From positions 186,001-250,000 of the forward strand of contig NZ_AVGG01000001.1 of assembly GCF_000498535.1 (NCBI RefSeq): a DNA stretch of 64,000 nt, given 5' to 3'. This DNA is from Flavobacterium limnosediminis JC2902 (GTDB taxonomy: Bacteria > Bacteroidota > Bacteroidia > Flavobacteriales > Flavobacteriaceae). How positions within the stretch are numbered: position 1 is the first letter of the stretch; each line of letters begins with the position of its first letter. The notes under the pieces were generated by a model, which worked only from the letters and a program-made list of their open reading frames with translations, was not told the origin of the DNA and did not search any database. Both the position numbers and the translations under genes were made by a program. This document shows, piece by piece, positions 1 through 5,608 of this stretch.

Positions 1-503
1 TCCTCTTCCACAAACCAGTTGAATGCACGTGGGGAAGAAAAAAACCAATACAACATCGGAAAACCGGTTGCCGTATAAATCACAAAAGCATCAAACCATC
101 TGTTCACCTTTGTTTTTTCTTCCTTCCTTGCATAAAGTCTCATAAAGCCATATTGTTGACGGATAAAATGAAACACTGCCACATAAGCCAGCACAGACCA
201 GAAAACCTTACTTCCGAAAGAAAAAAGCAATAATCCGATACTAAAACAGAGTATGGGCAATGCAATCAACATCTTTTTTCTTTTCCGGTATTCCGAAGGC
301 ACAAAATATGTTTTGAATAAGGTTGCATAAACGTGTGCCACGTCAATAAAAACAATCAGGAACAGCCAAGTATAAAACGAGTGATTCTCTTCAACCGACT
401 GTAGCCAATTTTGACATAAAAACACGATCGCCACCACAACAAAAGAAGGTGCGAGAATAAAAACACTGTCGGTTTTCGCTTTATGAATCCAAGGTTGTTC
501 CAT
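1..503 (-). CDS. Partial polytopic membrane protein, last gene of polyamine-like cluster
   Basis: This reading frame starts with ATG at 503 and runs off the left edge without a stop, so at least 167 residues are present and the C-terminus is missing. It overlaps the end of the preceding flavoprotein gene by 23 bases, which implies co-transcription. The visible part contains about four to five hydrophobic segments separated by short basic loops (YRKRKK; YARKEEKTK). A motif VFHFIRQQYGFMR sits between two membrane spans, where the His and Arg could be functional. I do not recognise the family. The position suggests a membrane partner of the SpeD/DUF4178/DUF350/aminopropyltransferase genes upstream. 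The frame is certain; the function is unknown. Confidence 0.75.
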   Translation of the reverse strand, partial: MEQPWIHKAKTDSVFILAPSFVVVAIVFLCQNWLQSVEENHSFYTWLFLIVFIDVAHVYATLFKTYFVPSEYRKRKKMLIALPILCFSIGLLLFSFGSKVFWSVLAYVAVFHFIRQQYGFMRLYARKEEKTKVNRWFDAFVIYTATGFPMLYWFFSSPRAFNWFVEE

Positions 504-2106
504 CCAAGATTGTATTTACGACATTTATTCCCTGATGAAAGGCTTCCTCGAAAATGGAAATCCCTGCCAAATCCGAATGGGCGAAGAAAATCTTATTTTC
601 AATACTTTTTGCGGCCTCTTTCTTAGCGGCACCAAACAGAAATCCCGGAACAGGACTTATCATTCCATGTCCCAATAAGTGAATGGAAATTTCTTCTGTT
701 TTACCCTCAATATCCGGATGTGCCATTTTTAAATCGTCAAAAACCATTTGCTTCCAATGTTCCTTTTTCTGCTTATACAGCGTCCTTCGGCTCTTTCTGA
801 TATCAGAAGAAGAAAAACTGTAATAATAGGTTATCACTTTTTTAGATTGCACTTGTCGTACCGACTGATGCTGGTCGTAAATATACCCCAAACCTTTCGA
901 TCCGTGAATCACATTATCCCAACACAAAGGGTAACTGTAATTATCGGTTAAATCGGAAACGGTTAATGTCGCCAAAAGCCACGGTGCATAATGGAATTCA
1001 CGGGCGATATGTTTTCTGTTTTCCAACAAATGCTGATTGATGAACTGTGGAGTGGCCAAAACGACCTTATCCGCAATTATTTCCACCGATTCTTTCTTCA
1101 TATCATCAAAAGCATGAACAACAGTTTTATCCCCTTCAATCTTTACTTCATAAGCCAAATGACTTTTCAGTGTTTTCCCATTGGAATATTTTTTCAGATG
1201 CGTGGCTAATCTTGCATTGCCTTCCGGCCAGGTAAGAACATTTTCTTTTCCGTCGGAAGTTACATTATGTTTTCTTCCTGCGAAATAATGAATTCCCGCC
1301 CAGGCAGAAACGTAATCAACGCCCAAACCAAAATCGTCACGGCAACAATAATCTACATAAGCAATCAACGGCCCCGATGTAAGCTGATTTTCATCAAGCC
1401 ATTGCTTCATTGTGATACTGTCCAACTTTATGGTTTCAACATCTCTTGAGGAATTCGCCAACGGAATATCGAAAAGATACTTACCATCAGCTCCTTTCGT
1501 TTCACGGAAATAATCCATTTTTGAGAAGAAAACCTGAAACTCTCTTTCATCAGTAATTGAATTCCCGTATTTCGGAACCAAGCCTTCCTGCCAGTCATTT
1601 TTGTAAAACAACCTTTCCTGAGGTGTGAATGTAAGTTGGGCTTCATCGAATTCCGGAAAACCTTTAGTATCATAACCAAGTATTACTTTTTCTTCTTCCA
1701 AAAACTGTAGCAATGCTTTATCATGAAAATTAGGCAATGGCAGGTAATGTGCCCCTAAAGGAAATTTGGAAAATTGGTTTTCACCGTTGGAAGAATTCCC
1801 TCCCAAATGGTTTTCCAGTTCCAAAACTAAAAAATCGGAAATTCCTTTTTTTCTAAACTGACGGGCAGCACTTAAACCGGAAATTCCACCACCAATAATC
1901 AGATAGGGAATATGAATCTGACGTGTCGGCTTTGGGAAATTTTTTACCCACAACCGATGTCCGAGAATATGATTGGTTCCCGAAAGACGAATAAGTAAGG
2001 CAATCACTCTCTCTTTACACGACTGCAACATCGGAAGAAGCAATAACGAAGCTGCAATCCCTTTCAGGAACGTTCGTCTCGAATTATAATTTTCCCCATT
2101 CCTCAT
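481..2106 (-). CDS. Tat-exported FAD-dependent amine oxidase-like lipoprotein
   Basis: The 541-residue protein has a twin-arginine signal (SRRTFLK at residues 9-15), a hydrophobic stretch and a lipobox-like LQSC ending at Cys30. It is therefore probably folded with its cofactor inside, exported by Tat and lipid-anchored. A Rossmann dinucleotide-binding motif IIGGGISGLSAARQF lies at about 70-84, followed by an acidic strand end (LVLELENHLGG), as in flavin amine oxidases and protoporphyrinogen oxidases. The C-terminal segment near FFAHSDLAGISIFEEAFHQG resembles the last FAD-contacting helix of that superfamily. Its start overlaps the aminopropyltransferase gene by 23 bases. Oxidation of a polyamine or aminopropylated product in the envelope is inferred from context; the substrate cannot be read from sequence. 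Confidence 0.8.
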   Translation of the reverse strand: MRNGENYNSRRTFLKGIAASLLLLPMLQSCKERVIALLIRLSGTNHILGHRLWVKNFPKPTRQIHIPYLIIGGGISGLSAARQFRKKGISDFLVLELENHLGGNSSNGENQFSKFPLGAHYLPLPNFHDKALLQFLEEEKVILGYDTKGFPEFDEAQLTFTPQERLFYKNDWQEGLVPKYGNSITDEREFQVFFSKMDYFRETKGADGKYLFDIPLANSSRDVETIKLDSITMKQWLDENQLTSGPLIAYVDYCCRDDFGLGVDYVSAWAGIHYFAGRKHNVTSDGKENVLTWPEGNARLATHLKKYSNGKTLKSHLAYEVKIEGDKTVVHAFDDMKKESVEIIADKVVLATPQFINQHLLENRKHIAREFHYAPWLLATLTVSDLTDNYSYPLCWDNVIHGSKGLGYIYDQHQSVRQVQSKKVITYYYSFSSSDIRKSRRTLYKQKKEHWKQMVFDDLKMAHPDIEGKTEEISIHLLGHGMISPVPGFLFGAAKKEAAKSIENKIFFAHSDLAGISIFEEAFHQGINVVNTILDGTTLDS

Positions 2107-3601
2107 CGAAGTAGCGTACTAAAACCTGGTTGTCCAATCGGTTGATTTCGATATCTTTTGAAATCATGTCTTTTGAGAAATAATTCAGCTTTTCAAACTG
2201 ATAATTGTAAAATCGTAATCCTTTAACTTCCCTGTTTACGGTATTAAAATTGGTTGCAAAACTCTTAGCTGCAATGGTAAATCCCCATTCTCCGAAAGAC
2301 GGCACATAAGCATGATACGCATCCACCTGCGGAAAAACTTCCATCATGGTTTTATTGATACACCAGAATGATTTTGGTGCAAAATAAGGCGATGTCGTTT
2401 GCACTACCACAACCGCATCCTTGGAAAGAACCTGATGAAGTGTTTTGTAGAAATTCAGAGAATAGAGTTTCCCCAAGCTGTAATTGGAAGGATCGGGAAA
2501 ATCAACAATCACAACATCGAATTTCTGTATGCAATCCTTTGCCCAGATATAAGCATCCTGATTAAGCACTTTTACCTTCGGATTTACTAATGATTGTTTG
2601 TTTAAATCGGTCAGGATTGTATTGGTTTTGAACAGCTTTGTCATCCCTTCATCCAAATCTACTAACGTAATGGTTTTCACTTCTTTGTATTTCAAAATTT
2701 CGCGAACCGCCAAGCCATCACCGCCTCCCAAAACCAACACATTTTCGGCTTTTGGGGCCATTGCCATTACCGGGTGCACCAAGGCTTCATGATAACGGTA
2801 TTCGTCAGCAGAACTAAACTGTAAATTATTATTGAGGTATAAGCGGTAATCACTTTTATTGTGCGTCAGAACAATGCGCTGGTAAGGTGTTGAACTTGAA
2901 TAAACGATATTTTCGCCGTACAGCTTTCCTTCAGAAAAAGACAATATGGAATCGGAAAAGATAAAAACCACAAGGAGCAATACGAAGGATCCGATGGCTT
3001 TTGCCTTTAGCAGATACACTTTTTTAAGTTCCGATTTCAGCAAAAAGCACAGAACGATGGCGATGCTGACATTAATCATTCCGAAGAACAACGAGGTCCG
3101 CATCACACCCAATTGCGGCACCAAAACCAACGGAAAAAGAATGGATGCTAATAAAGCACCGATGTAATCAAACGTAAAAACATTTGACACCAAATCACGG
3201 AACTTTACCCTGTCTTTCAGAATGTTCATCAAGAGCGGAATCTCTAATCCTACAAGGCATCCGGTGATGAATACCAAAAAATAAAGGATAAACTGAAAAT
3301 AATGAACACTTTCAAACAGCAGGAAAAGAATAACAGAACTCAATCCGCCGATTAATCCCACGAGGATTTCGATTTCAATGAAAGTATTCAGCATATTGCG
3401 TTGGAGAAACTTCGAAAAATAAGAACCCACCCCCATCGAAAAGAGATACACTCCGATAATGAAAGAGAACTGTTTTACAGAATCGCCTAGCAGATAGCTG
3501 GCCAAGGTTCCCGCGACCAGTTCGTACACCAATCCGCAAGTAGCAATGGTAAATACCGCTAAAAGAAGTAAAAACTCAAATTTTAAAAATCGTTTACCCA
3601 T
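2084..3601 (-). CDS. Membrane-embedded spermidine synthase-like aminopropyltransferase
   Basis: I use the ATG at 3601 (MGKRFLKFEF, 505 residues). A GTG at 3613 would add four residues inside the DUF350 gene. Residues 8 to about 220 contain around seven hydrophobic helices; the rest is a spermidine-synthase (SpeE) fold. The acceptor region NNLQFSSADEYRYHEALVHP and the nucleotide-binding LVLGGGDGLAVREIL (GGGDG about 292-296) are intact, as is DFPDP at about 367-371, where the catalytic Asp residues of the family lie, so it should be active. The family moves the aminopropyl group of decarboxylated AdoMet onto an amine. The membrane domain separates it from soluble SpeE. It overlaps the DUF350 stop by 8 bases, and SpeD is encoded upstream. 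Confidence 0.85.
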   Translation of the reverse strand: MGKRFLKFEFLLLLAVFTIATCGLVYELVAGTLASYLLGDSVKQFSFIIGVYLFSMGVGSYFSKFLQRNMLNTFIEIEILVGLIGGLSSVILFLLFESVHYFQFILYFLVFITGCLVGLEIPLLMNILKDRVKFRDLVSNVFTFDYIGALLASILFPLVLVPQLGVMRTSLFFGMINVSIAIVLCFLLKSELKKVYLLKAKAIGSFVLLLVVFIFSDSILSFSEGKLYGENIVYSSSTPYQRIVLTHNKSDYRLYLNNNLQFSSADEYRYHEALVHPVMAMAPKAENVLVLGGGDGLAVREILKYKEVKTITLVDLDEGMTKLFKTNTILTDLNKQSLVNPKVKVLNQDAYIWAKDCIQKFDVVIVDFPDPSNYSLGKLYSLNFYKTLHQVLSKDAVVVVQTTSPYFAPKSFWCINKTMMEVFPQVDAYHAYVPSFGEWGFTIAAKSFATNFNTVNREVKGLRFYNYQFEKLNYFSKDMISKDIEINRLDNQVLVRYFDEEWGKL

Positions 3602-3809
3602 GGATAGCGGCACTGATAATCATTGAAATTCCAATGATGAATGCCCCAAAAACGATGGCAATGGCAACATTATTTTTCTGTACAATTTCTTTCCAGGTAT
3701 TCTCCGGTGTCAGTTTCTCAATAATAAAGTAGGTAACCAGCAAAATGGCGATACCTAAAAGTGAAAAAATAACGGAATTTAAAATTGGTTTGGCTGCTAA
3801 AATATCCAT
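3594..3809 (-). CDS. DUF350 (YjfL-like) small membrane protein
   Basis: This 71-residue protein has two hydrophobic helices (about 9-28 and 47-67) joined by a charged loop EKLTPENTWKEIVQKNN. The loop and the following NVAIAIVFGAFIIGISMIISAAI match my recollection of the DUF350/YjfL family, normally built from such two-helix units; this copy is a single unit. From family knowledge, DUF350 genes recur next to DUF4178-type and polyamine or glutathionylspermidine genes in envelope-stress loci. It lies between a small membrane ORF and the membrane aminopropyltransferase and overlaps the latter by 8 bases. A role as membrane scaffold or channel of the cluster is inference. Confidence 0.8.
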   Translation of the reverse strand: MDILAAKPILNSVIFSLLGIAILLVTYFIIEKLTPENTWKEIVQKNNVAIAIVFGAFIIGISMIISAAIHG

Positions 3810-3827
3810 AGTGATGTTTTTTAAATA

Positions 3828-4013
3828 TTATTTATGATAAAAACGATTTACTGCCACGTGGCTTCCCGTTCGATTCGGGCTGTAATTTTCGGTTGATTCG
3901 CAATCACATATTCTGTTTCCGGAATACGTAAAATGCAAAAACATCAGATAGAAAAACAATCCGATGACGATGGCGATTAAATTACTCTTTATTAGTTTAT
4001 AAATAGTGTCCAT
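3828..4013 (-). CDS. Small single-span membrane protein of the cluster
   Basis: A 61-residue ORF starts 2 bases after the DUF4178 stop and ends 18 bases before the DUF350 start, so it is placed as a true operon member. Residues about 10-30 form one strongly hydrophobic helix; the N-terminus carries two Lys and the remaining 30 residues are polar with a CDC pair (RICDCESTENYS). I do not recognise a family. The spacing and the absence of a competing frame in the gap support coding. It could be a regulatory or assembly peptide for the neighbouring membrane proteins; that is inference. Confidence 0.6.
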   Translation of the reverse strand: MDTIYKLIKSNLIAIVIGLFFYLMFLHFTYSGNRICDCESTENYSPNRTGSHVAVNRFYHK

Positions 4014-4015
4014 GA

Positions 4016-5242
4016 TTAGTTGTCATAGGGTGAATAACTGCTTTCCGCCCACCTTTTTTGTTCGAAATAAATTGAAAGATAATACAATCCGACCGTTAAA
4101 ATGCCCATAAACAAAATAGGCATCCAAACATTCCACATGGAAGGCTGATTCCAAACTGCATTCACCTTAATAAAATTATTTGTTATGTCTTCCGGAGCTT
4201 TCATCGGAGTAACCACGATATGGTATTTCCCTTCATTGACACCGCAAATATTGAATTCCTCTGAAGTATCGCCTTCTGTCCAATTTTCGCCATCCGTATA
4301 ACCGTGATAGTATTCAATGTCTTTGTTGGCATAAACCTCTTCATTTGTTTTTTCATTCACCAAAGCCACCTGAAGATTCGCCCAGGAATTATCAACGTCC
4401 GAGCGGGTAGAAATAGTTAATGGCGCCGAACCGCCTTTCAAAACAAAGGAAGGACTTACAAATGACTTGTCTTTATGCTGATCAAAAGTTAAGGATTCGC
4501 TCAAAACCACCTGTTCTGTTTTGTCACTATAAATAAACAGGTGAGAGGATAAAATCAGTACCGCTGCCGAACACATGATTATGGCTAAATTCCGAACATT
4601 AATTAAAAACGGCTGTACCATTCCTACTCCCGTCTTTATTGGCGTTTTAGGCATCGAGAATCCTTTTTTTATTTCCTTAACCGAAATATGTTCCCCGAAA
4701 AAAGTAGCTTCCTGATCTCCCAACGTTTCAATTGAAATGATATAAGGTGGCTGAATATACTCAACCATGTGCACCTTTTTGACCGGAATAACAAAATCGA
4801 AATAGCCTTGCGCTGCTACAATTTCGGTATCGGTATAATCGTAGAGATTCATACGGATTTCATTATGGGTCAGAAATCTGGGATGATTTTTTACATCATA
4901 GCTGTCTTCAACTTCCTTGAGTAAAATCCAATGACCACTGGCTTCTGAAAGGTAGATAAAATCACCTTTTTTGCTTTCCAGAATATATTCATCCCAATAA
5001 TAACTACCGTAAGCTTTTTTGGTCAGAATTCCGGTTACGGTGCAATCTTCCCCACGCAGCCTTCCCTTCTGCCCCACATTCAACCCTGCCAAAGGCCTTC
5101 TGTGACTGAATCCTTTTTGGGAACGAAGTCCGTCGTCAGCCATAAGATAAAGATTTTGACAATTGGGACAGACGAACGTTTTCACATCAAAATTAACCTC
5201 TACATCAGTAGTGACATCACAATGATAACAAGGAACCTTCAT
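4016..5242 (-). CDS. DUF4178 membrane protein with N-terminal zinc ribbon
   Basis: The 408-residue protein begins with a zinc-ribbon-like pair of CxxC knuckles (C5xxC8 and C25xxC28). A DUF4178-type beta domain follows at about 53-190, recognisable by GQKGRLRGEDCTVTGIL, then WDEYIL and GHWILL. Two membrane helices (about 219-238 and 374-392) bracket a beta-rich domain of some 130 residues that should face the periplasm, because the short tail after the second helix is basic. It starts 3 bases after the speD stop. DUF4178 proteins are known companions of DUF350 and polyamine genes; the molecular function is not established. A sensor or docking role linking cytosolic polyamine synthesis to the envelope is inference. 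Confidence 0.8.
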   Translation of the reverse strand: MKVPCYHCDVTTDVEVNFDVKTFVCPNCQNLYLMADDGLRSQKGFSHRRPLAGLNVGQKGRLRGEDCTVTGILTKKAYGSYYWDEYILESKKGDFIYLSEASGHWILLKEVEDSYDVKNHPRFLTHNEIRMNLYDYTDTEIVAAQGYFDFVIPVKKVHMVEYIQPPYIISIETLGDQEATFFGEHISVKEIKKGFSMPKTPIKTGVGMVQPFLINVRNLAIIMCSAAVLILSSHLFIYSDKTEQVVLSESLTFDQHKDKSFVSPSFVLKGGSAPLTISTRSDVDNSWANLQVALVNEKTNEEVYANKDIEYYHGYTDGENWTEGDTSEEFNICGVNEGKYHIVVTPMKAPEDITNNFIKVNAVWNQPSMWNVWMPILFMGILTVGLYYLSIYFEQKRWAESSYSPYDN

Positions 5243-5245
5243 ATT

Positions 5246-5608
5246 TTATCTGTTAATTTCGAAATCTTTAATAATCGTCGCGCCAAAATAATCTATATAT
5301 TCCTGAGTTACCGCTTTTACTTTTGCAGAATTATCCTGCAAATAATTGCACAAATAAACATCCAAAGTCAGTTGATTATATTCCGGCCAGGTGTGTATAC
5401 AAATATGAGATTCTTTCAGACATACTGCAATTGTAAAACTGTCATTTTCGAAATCATGAACCACAAGGCCCACTTTTTCCAGAGCGAATTTTTCAAGAAT
5501 TAATTCGGTGACAGCTACAAACTGCTGACTGTCTGTAAGCTTTTTCATTTCGTCAACCTGAAGCGTTACCAGTTTGTGTAAACCTGGCGAATAGGAAGTT
5601 AAATTCAT
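5246..5608 (-). CDS. speD: S-adenosylmethionine decarboxylase proenzyme
   Basis: The 120-residue protein is a short prokaryotic AdoMet decarboxylase, which self-cleaves to create a pyruvoyl group and makes decarboxylated AdoMet, the aminopropyl donor. The motif KESHICIHTWPE places the cleavage serine at S67 and the processing histidine at H72, with the catalytic cysteine at C87 in VYLCNY. The S-x4-H and H-x14-C spacing equals that of the Thermotoga enzyme (S63, H68, C83 from memory), so the proenzyme should be functional. It is the first gene of the minus-strand cluster and sits behind the terminator of the ferredoxin operon, so the cluster has its own promoter between 5609 and 5680. I see no ornithine, arginine or lysine decarboxylase gene in the window to supply a classic acceptor. 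Confidence 0.93.
   Translation of the reverse strand: MNLTSYSPGLHKLVTLQVDEMKKLTDSQQFVAVTELILEKFALEKVGLVVHDFENDSFTIAVCLKESHICIHTWPEYNQLTLDVYLCNYLQDNSAKVKAVTQEYIDYFGATIIKDFEINR

Follow-up and report, generated by a model that had tools for sequence, protein, structure and literature searches.

A predicted protein-aminopropylation operon with a C-terminal lysine as candidate acceptor in Flavobacterium limnosediminis JC2902

The 64,000-nucleotide stretch of the Flavobacterium limnosediminis JC2902 genome analyzed here (contig NZ_AVGG01000001.1, positions 186,001 to 250,000; "the window") begins with a run of seven minus-strand open reading frames (ORFs), which includes a SpeD-like S-adenosylmethionine (AdoMet) decarboxylase, an aminopropyltransferase fused to a membrane part (APT) and a 61-residue membrane protein ending in His-Lys. 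Sequence comparisons make it reasonably probable that this operon is a dedicated protein-aminopropylation system, in which the APT would act on a lysine at the C-terminus of a partner anchored in the membrane. We give about even chances to the wider proposal that in several phyla a SpeD-fed APT aminopropylates an encoded C-terminal lysine outside the cytoplasm, in parallel to the ligation of spermidine to Gly-Gly ends in the YjfM/YgiB systems of Escherichia coli, and that a flavin oxidase exported by the twin-arginine translocation (Tat) route edits the mark. Four observations, which are new within the literature searched, favor a protein tail as the acceptor: the regular occurrence of a terminal lysine, its shifts between carriers, a prediction test on isolated APT genes, and the exchange of lysine for Gly-Gly where a ligase takes the place of the APT. 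The genes on which the argument turns are the following.

3828-4013, minus strand: small single-pass membrane protein of 61 aa with the C-terminus ...NRFYHK, the proposed aminopropyl acceptor (substrate)
3831-3836, minus strand: His-Lys codons CAT AAA of the 61-aa protein, with the stop codon TAA directly after at 3828-3830
2084-3613, minus strand: membrane-fused APT, 509 aa (NF002956, Spermine_synth)
2087-2917, minus strand: spermidine-synthase-like catalytic domain of the APT, approximately residues 233-509, predicted to lie outside the membrane
5246-5608, minus strand: speD, class 1b S-adenosylmethionine decarboxylase-like, 120 aa (PF02675)
4016-5242, minus strand: DUF4178 membrane protein, 408 aa, with a four-Cys zinc-ribbon-like N-terminus (PF13785, above cut-off)
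3594-3809, minus strand: DUF350 two-helix membrane protein, 71 aa (PF03994, above cut-off)

The tail was surveyed at 167 APT loci, comprising L033-L119 (7 loci plus 80 named loci) and L167-L246. The second group consists of all 28 loci from a search of the phylum of the L119 genome, 47 from the 104 matching genomes of the phylum of the L117 genome, and 5 from the 15 genomes matched by an oxidase profile, these five having been chosen because they have the oxidase; L119 and L168 come from a single genome, so that at least one place is counted twice among the 167. The actinobacterial variants (DUF4247/DUF2617 of PMC11237479) lie outside this survey. A DUF350 or DUF4178 gene is also present at 148 of the 167 loci, and a Lys-tailed cluster protein was found at 146 of these (134 by rule, 12 by eye), ending in Gly-Lys or His-Lys in 144 cases. 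The first set, in which the tail was originally spotted, has such a candidate at 81/81 loci, and the second set, fetched afterwards, at 65/67. Nearly all of the rule-based candidates (129/134) lie at most 150 bases from another cluster gene, although a few of the 134 may be chance ORFs, as at L216, where the proper tail was identified by eye, and perhaps at L038, where the lipoprotein ends in GFGK.

A control for other end residues, absent from the rule-based pipeline, was provided by a separate search for hydrophobic ORFs ending in Gly/His-X near the APT, run with looser hydrophobicity settings and with DUF350, APT, oxidase, SpeD and polytopic membrane protein (PO) ORFs excluded. In this search X was Lys at 130/167 loci, and each of the other 19 residues occurred at 10 loci or fewer (Ser 10, Arg 9, Glu 9, Ala 9). 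With a stricter hydrophobicity filter Lys was found at 82/167 loci, and Gly came second at 69 owing to the DUF350 ends. The last residue is not fixed in the other cluster proteins, except for DUF350, where it is mostly Gly. Codon usage across 136 candidates is mixed (Lys AAA 99 and AAG 37; His CAC 46 and CAT 37), and each of the four Gly codons and of the three stop codons is represented, which argues that the amino acid is kept and not the DNA.

The alignment of the 61-aa protein shows a hydrophobic segment, a conserved Gly and the terminal His-Lys; G32 is the only other column conserved at 95% or more. Relatives found with a hidden Markov model (HMM) in 87 loci end in His-Lys in 57/57 cases. 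The mean net charge of the small peptides falls from +1.46 ahead of the hydrophobic segment to -0.72 behind it, and the tail measures about 31 aa. Elsewhere the ending is found on other proteins. At L109, L110, L113, L114, L115 and L117 an ORF in the place of the 61-aa protein ends in -GGK. At L034, L064 and L065 a separate small gene was not detected, and it is the DUF4178 protein whose extended C-terminus carries the ending, as -SHK or -GHK. Lipoproteins end in -FGK at the PspA-type or related loci L035, L037, L038 and L039, and in -RGK, -SGK or -GGK at others (7 labelled, with a lipobox-like motif in 5/7); their Lys-terminated tails are long, flexible and rich in Ser, Gly and Arg. Two plasmid records contain comparable "hypothetical proteins", one of 48 aa ending in -PSHK (Novosphingobium) and one of 510 aa ending in -SSGK (Alteromonas). 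As judged from these sequences, the lysine tail moves between a separate peptide, the DUF4178 C-terminus and a lipoprotein.

At 19 loci the APT stands alone, without DUF350 or DUF4178 nearby. The prediction that the tail would be found beside a distant DUF350 gene was examined in 10 of these 19 genomes, and 10/10 carry an ORF ending in -GGK, -GHK or -GGGK just upstream of that gene. A different enzyme is accompanied by a different ending. In E. coli K-12 the DUF1190 proteins YjfM and YgiB adjoin YjfC and YgiC, which are annotated as peptide--spermidine ligases and have reportedly been described as such (Pederick et al. 2023, PMID 36745518), and they end in -WGG and -MGG, respectively (L135:7388-8026 for yjfM, L136:1-416 for the end of ygiB). 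The Gly-Gly end of the two proteins is likely to be the spermidine acceptor site in vivo. A GspS-like ATP-grasp gene lies within 1.5 kb of 23/28 DUF1190 matches in 249 genomes, and the 22 readable ligase-linked tails end in GG (17), GS (3) or SS (2), and none in K. A GspS-like ATP-grasp gene occurs at a single APT locus of the 167, L036, whose 197-aa membrane protein ends in -YGG. The occurrence of GG with the ligase and of Lys with the APT suggests that the last residue follows the enzyme.

The seven-transmembrane architecture of the APT, which had been noticed in the first-pass annotation of this DNA as a fusion to about seven membrane helices, is borne out by the AlphaFold model (mean predicted local distance difference test score 90.4, 57 sequences) together with the hydropathy profile; segments five and six are modelled as one unbroken helix (residues 138-191). 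The protein scores 650.2 bits against NF002956 (polyamine aminopropyltransferase; cut-off 472) and is the sole match above this cut-off in its genome. Its catalytic part superposes on spermidine and related synthases, as with 1uir_A (Z 35.2, root-mean-square deviation (rmsd) 1.9 over 269 residues), and D371, D374, Q405 and W443 are present in 88/88 aligned rows and D299 in 87/88. Loops on one side of the membrane contain on average 1.74, 2.39, 3.63 and 3.37 Lys plus Arg residues and those on the other 0.25, 0.09 and 1.14 (57 sequences), which under the positive-inside rule puts the N-terminus inside and the catalytic domain that follows segment 7 outside. The catalytic domain, the tail and the oxidase are thus predicted to meet outside the membrane.

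SpeD, the genome's single PF02675 match, scores 69.4 bits against this family (cut-off 25) and 61.5 bits against TIGR03330, under the equivalog cut-off of 75.65. S63/H68/C83 are the corresponding residues of the class 1b enzyme of Thermotoga maritima, as reported in PMC10407285, where SpeD relatives with substrates other than AdoMet and four residues diagnostic of the ornithine type are also described. The window protein has the matching S67, H72 and C87, in agreement with the triad claimed earlier, and S67 and H72 are invariant in 71/71 aligned rows of cluster SpeD proteins, the window included.

We propose that SpeD makes decarboxylated AdoMet (dcAdoMet) in the cytoplasm, as its family would suggest, and that this crosses the membrane, for which the seven-helix domain of the APT is an obvious candidate. 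The predicted extracytoplasmic domain would then put a 3-aminopropyl group on a partner protein that is anchored in the membrane and would have its flexible tail outside, at the epsilon-amine of the lysine that ends this tail; in the window the partner would be the 61-aa peptide ending in -FYHK. The resulting C-terminal N-epsilon-(3-aminopropyl)lysine would be close in shape to a C-terminal Gly-spermidine amide, the possible product of a peptide-spermidine ligase at the Gly-Gly ends of E. coli proteins of the YjfM/YgiB type. Two enzymes in DUF350 operons would thus arrive at similar, polyamine-like protein tails. In the weakest step, a guess that goes beyond the fold family, the Tat-type flavin adenine dinucleotide (FAD)-dependent oxidase may oxidize or remove the added group; as a further guess, DUF350, DUF4178 and PO probably serve an envelope response in which they hold the modified tail, transport it or read it. 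If correct, this would to our knowledge be the first protein aminopropylation in bacteria. Several DUF families and tiny ORFs would gain a role, and the yjf and ygi genes of E. coli would be tied to the same idea of a polyamine-like envelope protein tail; with an acceptor residue named, what membrane-fused APTs modify becomes one mass-spectrometry question.

Several points weigh against a lysine tail modified in this way. An extracytoplasmic APT domain requires dcAdoMet outside, and we know of no exporter; with the domain inside, modification would have to come before export. Residue 87 of SpeD is Cys in just 42 of the 71 rows, Ser in 28 and Tyr in 1, and in this respect the earlier triad does not extend to all cluster SpeD proteins. 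L178 and L181 end in Arg-Ile-Lys, and no Gly/His-Lys tail was found in L188, with all flanks available, or in L221, which lies at a contig edge. The HMM of the small protein was trained on its own matches, and the pattern was first spotted in the first set. None of the 19 lone-APT loci has an accepted tail within its stretch, the prediction test covered ten of their genomes, and four second DUF350 copies (L293-L296, in four of the test genomes) are without such an upstream ORF. Five of the 22 ligase-linked DUF1190 tails end in GS or SS and not in GG. Oxidase and PO are missing from the PspA-type clusters and therefore stand outside the core reaction.

In its fold the APT matches spermidine synthases with soluble substrates, and the enzyme might instead act on a small molecule, a lipid headgroup or a soluble amine, with the Lys-tailed protein sensing, binding or anchoring the product. 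We regard this as rather unlikely, since it leaves unexplained why the conserved residue is the very last one, why the terminal Lys is kept on three unrelated carriers, and why the ending is GG where the APT gives way to a ligase. A lipid or wall amine had been the leading acceptor in the first-pass annotation; no evidence favoring it was found and it was given up, as the Lys-ended 61-aa protein and its counterparts point to a protein tail, which fits more of the data.

Braun's lipoprotein (Lpp) is joined to the cell wall through its C-terminal lysine, and the small protein likewise combines a membrane anchor with a predicted extracytoplasmic tail and an invariant terminal Lys, export being a prediction. 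The lysine could then be a peptidoglycan attachment point, with the polyamine enzymes acting separately. This is improbable, because the linkage of the tail is to SpeD and the APT and the GG exchange fits polyamine chemistry better; no transpeptidase family match is present among the seven genes, L,D-transpeptidases not having been searched for elsewhere in the genome.

The family name of NF002956 and the retained active-site acids would also suit an ordinary spermidine synthase with a membrane anchor, turning putrescine into spermidine for the envelope. Dedicated membrane partners in the cluster speak against this, as does a separate pair of genes on another contig (L278:8524-10920), where a SpeA-like arginine decarboxylase relative adjoins a homospermidine/deoxyhypusine-synthase-like gene. 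Both are under their NCBIfam equivalog cut-offs; the pair is probably the triamine route of this genome, which may thus make triamines without the APT cluster. Membrane APT fusions reportedly fail to complement a spermidine-synthase mutant (Li et al. in 2019), which also counts against a spermidine synthase, and we consider this explanation quite improbable. The first-pass annotation had argued from the lack of an ornithine, arginine or lysine decarboxylase, which is true of the cluster; the argument was dropped because of the SpeA-like gene, and a second PF02784 gene is also present in the genome. Very improbable, finally, is an unmodified structural lysine, such as a salt bridge or gate in a DUF350/APT membrane complex: the small peptide always adjoins DUF350 or DUF4178, but the same last residue also ends lipoprotein tails that are long, flexible and rich in Ser, Gly and Arg.

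A linkage already in print, of which the cluster is a variant, associates a seven-helix APT with DUF350, DUF4178 and SpeD and leaves the acceptor unnamed (Ravi et al. 2024, PMC11237479). That paper also speaks of "aminopropylation of other substrates" and cites Li et al.; a membrane-bound route is therefore less new than was once claimed. The likeness to the CesT/Tir-PspA operon with a seven-transmembrane spermidine synthase described there lies in the combination of APT, DUF350 and DUF4178, all of which are present in the window, and in the envelope setting. The window cluster differs in its two-helix DUF350, in a Lys-tailed peptide that replaces the lipoprotein, and in the added FAD oxidase and PO; no PspA or CesT/Tir Pfam match was obtained among its seven genes. 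The term "C-terminal lysine" does not appear in the main text of PMC11237479, and no proposal of a C-terminal lysine as acceptor was found among the literature matches listed, subscription papers and preprints being outside the search.

Other known systems resemble parts of the proposal. The yjfL-yjfM-yjfC genes of E. coli share the DUF350 setting and a partner with a flexible tail and a special C-terminus (GG), whereas YjfC and YgiC differ in forming an ATP-grasp amide bond to the C-terminal carboxylate, in place of the aminopropyl transfer to a lysine amine proposed for the APT. Li et al. reportedly described in 2019 a fusion of a major facilitator superfamily domain with spermidine synthase (MFS-SpdSyn), accompanied by AdoMet decarboxylase and DUF350, and are said to have proposed an acceptor other than putrescine, without naming one; the enzyme pair is that of the window, and the reading given here adds a protein tail as acceptor. 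The same work reportedly assigned SpeD a polyamine-independent role, and the acceptor of membrane-fused APTs is said to have been open since. Hypusine of eIF5A is likewise a polyamine-derived group on the amine of a protein lysine, although it is an aminobutyl group transferred from spermidine by deoxyhypusine synthase to an internal lysine in the cytoplasm. Diatom silaffins carry aminopropyl units on protein lysines, with AdoMet decarboxylase and an aminopropyltransferase suspected; they differ from the proposed tail in that the lysines are internal, the proteins belong to eukaryotic silica and the enzymes are described as not established (PMC3820600).

The seven ORFs span window positions 1-5608 with intergenic gaps of 2, 3 and 18 bases and overlaps of 20-23 bases, and the window proteins pass the Pfam cut-offs of AdoMet_dc, DUF350, DUF4178, Spermine_synth and Amino_oxidase, in keeping with the gene run and the membrane-fused APT as first described. 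The order speD-DUF4178-small protein-DUF350-APT-oxidase-PO is complete in 43/80 named loci, which are the best 80 of at least 580 confirmed and are biased toward near relatives; of the 43, 42 bear names from Bacteroidota and the remaining one, L103, is a record of Acidobacteria. The oxidase directly follows the APT in 74/80. Gene order is conserved beyond chance, given the 43/80 identical orders and the 74/80 adjacencies. Scattering of the genes in relatives, which had been named as an outcome that would speak against one conserved unit, was looked for and did not occur. What remains of the earlier interpretation is a conserved unit with a membrane APT, an acceptor probably other than putrescine and a plausible oxidation outside the membrane; its novelty is less than was claimed, and its lipid or wall acceptor is not retained.

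The full-length APT is patchy in Bacteroidota, with 8/148 genomes above the cut-off, including that of F. limnosediminis. It was found in 28/249 genomes of the phylum of the L119 genome (threshold 1e-80) and in 104/193 of the phylum of the L117 genome (threshold 1e-100), and partial versions of the cluster occur in records named Proteobacteria, Verrucomicrobia, Acidobacteria and Leptospiraceae. Other clusters have no oxidase or PO and contain PspA, a CesT-like protein, a short DUF4178, a lipoprotein and a longer DUF350 instead, as in the arrangement published in PMC11237479. A reverse search with the oxidase profile gave matches in 15/395 Bacteroidota genomes, and the APT adjoins the oxidase in 8/8 of those inspected (the F. 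limnosediminis genome, G002, G080, G245, G379, G210, G166 and G212). The two remaining genes of the window cluster are the following.

481-2106, minus strand: FAD-dependent amine-oxidase-fold protein, 541 aa, with the twin-arginine start SRRTFLK and an LQSC lipobox-like motif (PF01593, PF13450)
3-503, minus strand, running past the window edge: PO, first 167 of 338 aa

The oxidase scores 26.8 bits against Amino_oxidase PF01593 (cut-off 19.8), is also above the cut-off of PF13450, and has weak matches to polyamine and monoamine oxidases. An RRx[F/L] start is present in 69/109 oxidase ORFs, compared with 3/88 for the APT, 3/58 for PO, 2/102 for DUF4178 and 0/71 for SpeD, and it makes the oxidation outside the membrane that had been suggested earlier plausible. 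A lipobox-like Cys occurs in 45/109 oxidase ORFs, in 30/109 together with the RRx[F/L] start. Flavin amine oxidases of the monoamine and polyamine oxidase type have an active-site lysine near FAD N5; judged from the sequence alignment, the columns of the window family conserved at 85% or more (74 aligned rows) include no lysine.

Read beyond the window, PO has its full length of 338 aa at L002:7488-8504, and the gene downstream of it lies on the opposite strand. PO gave no Pfam match up to E = 5. The model of its L040 relative has no clear match in Foldseek (best E 1.2), and its best VIA-align hit is a rhodopsin-type helical bundle (Z 6.7, rmsd 4.4 over 163 residues), which VIA-align grades as possibly a common arrangement and no more. 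D54, H57, H112, Q116, Q117, H242, H327 and D331 are each conserved at 95% or more in 57 rows, and these residues look like those of a metal-binding membrane enzyme.

SpeD proteins with Ser at position 87 are mostly from Bacteroidota other than Flavobacterium and Chryseobacterium. Many clusters (L071, L075, L081, L085, L093-L096 and others) contain two consecutive DUF4178 genes, one of soluble size (about 210 aa) and one of membrane-protein size.

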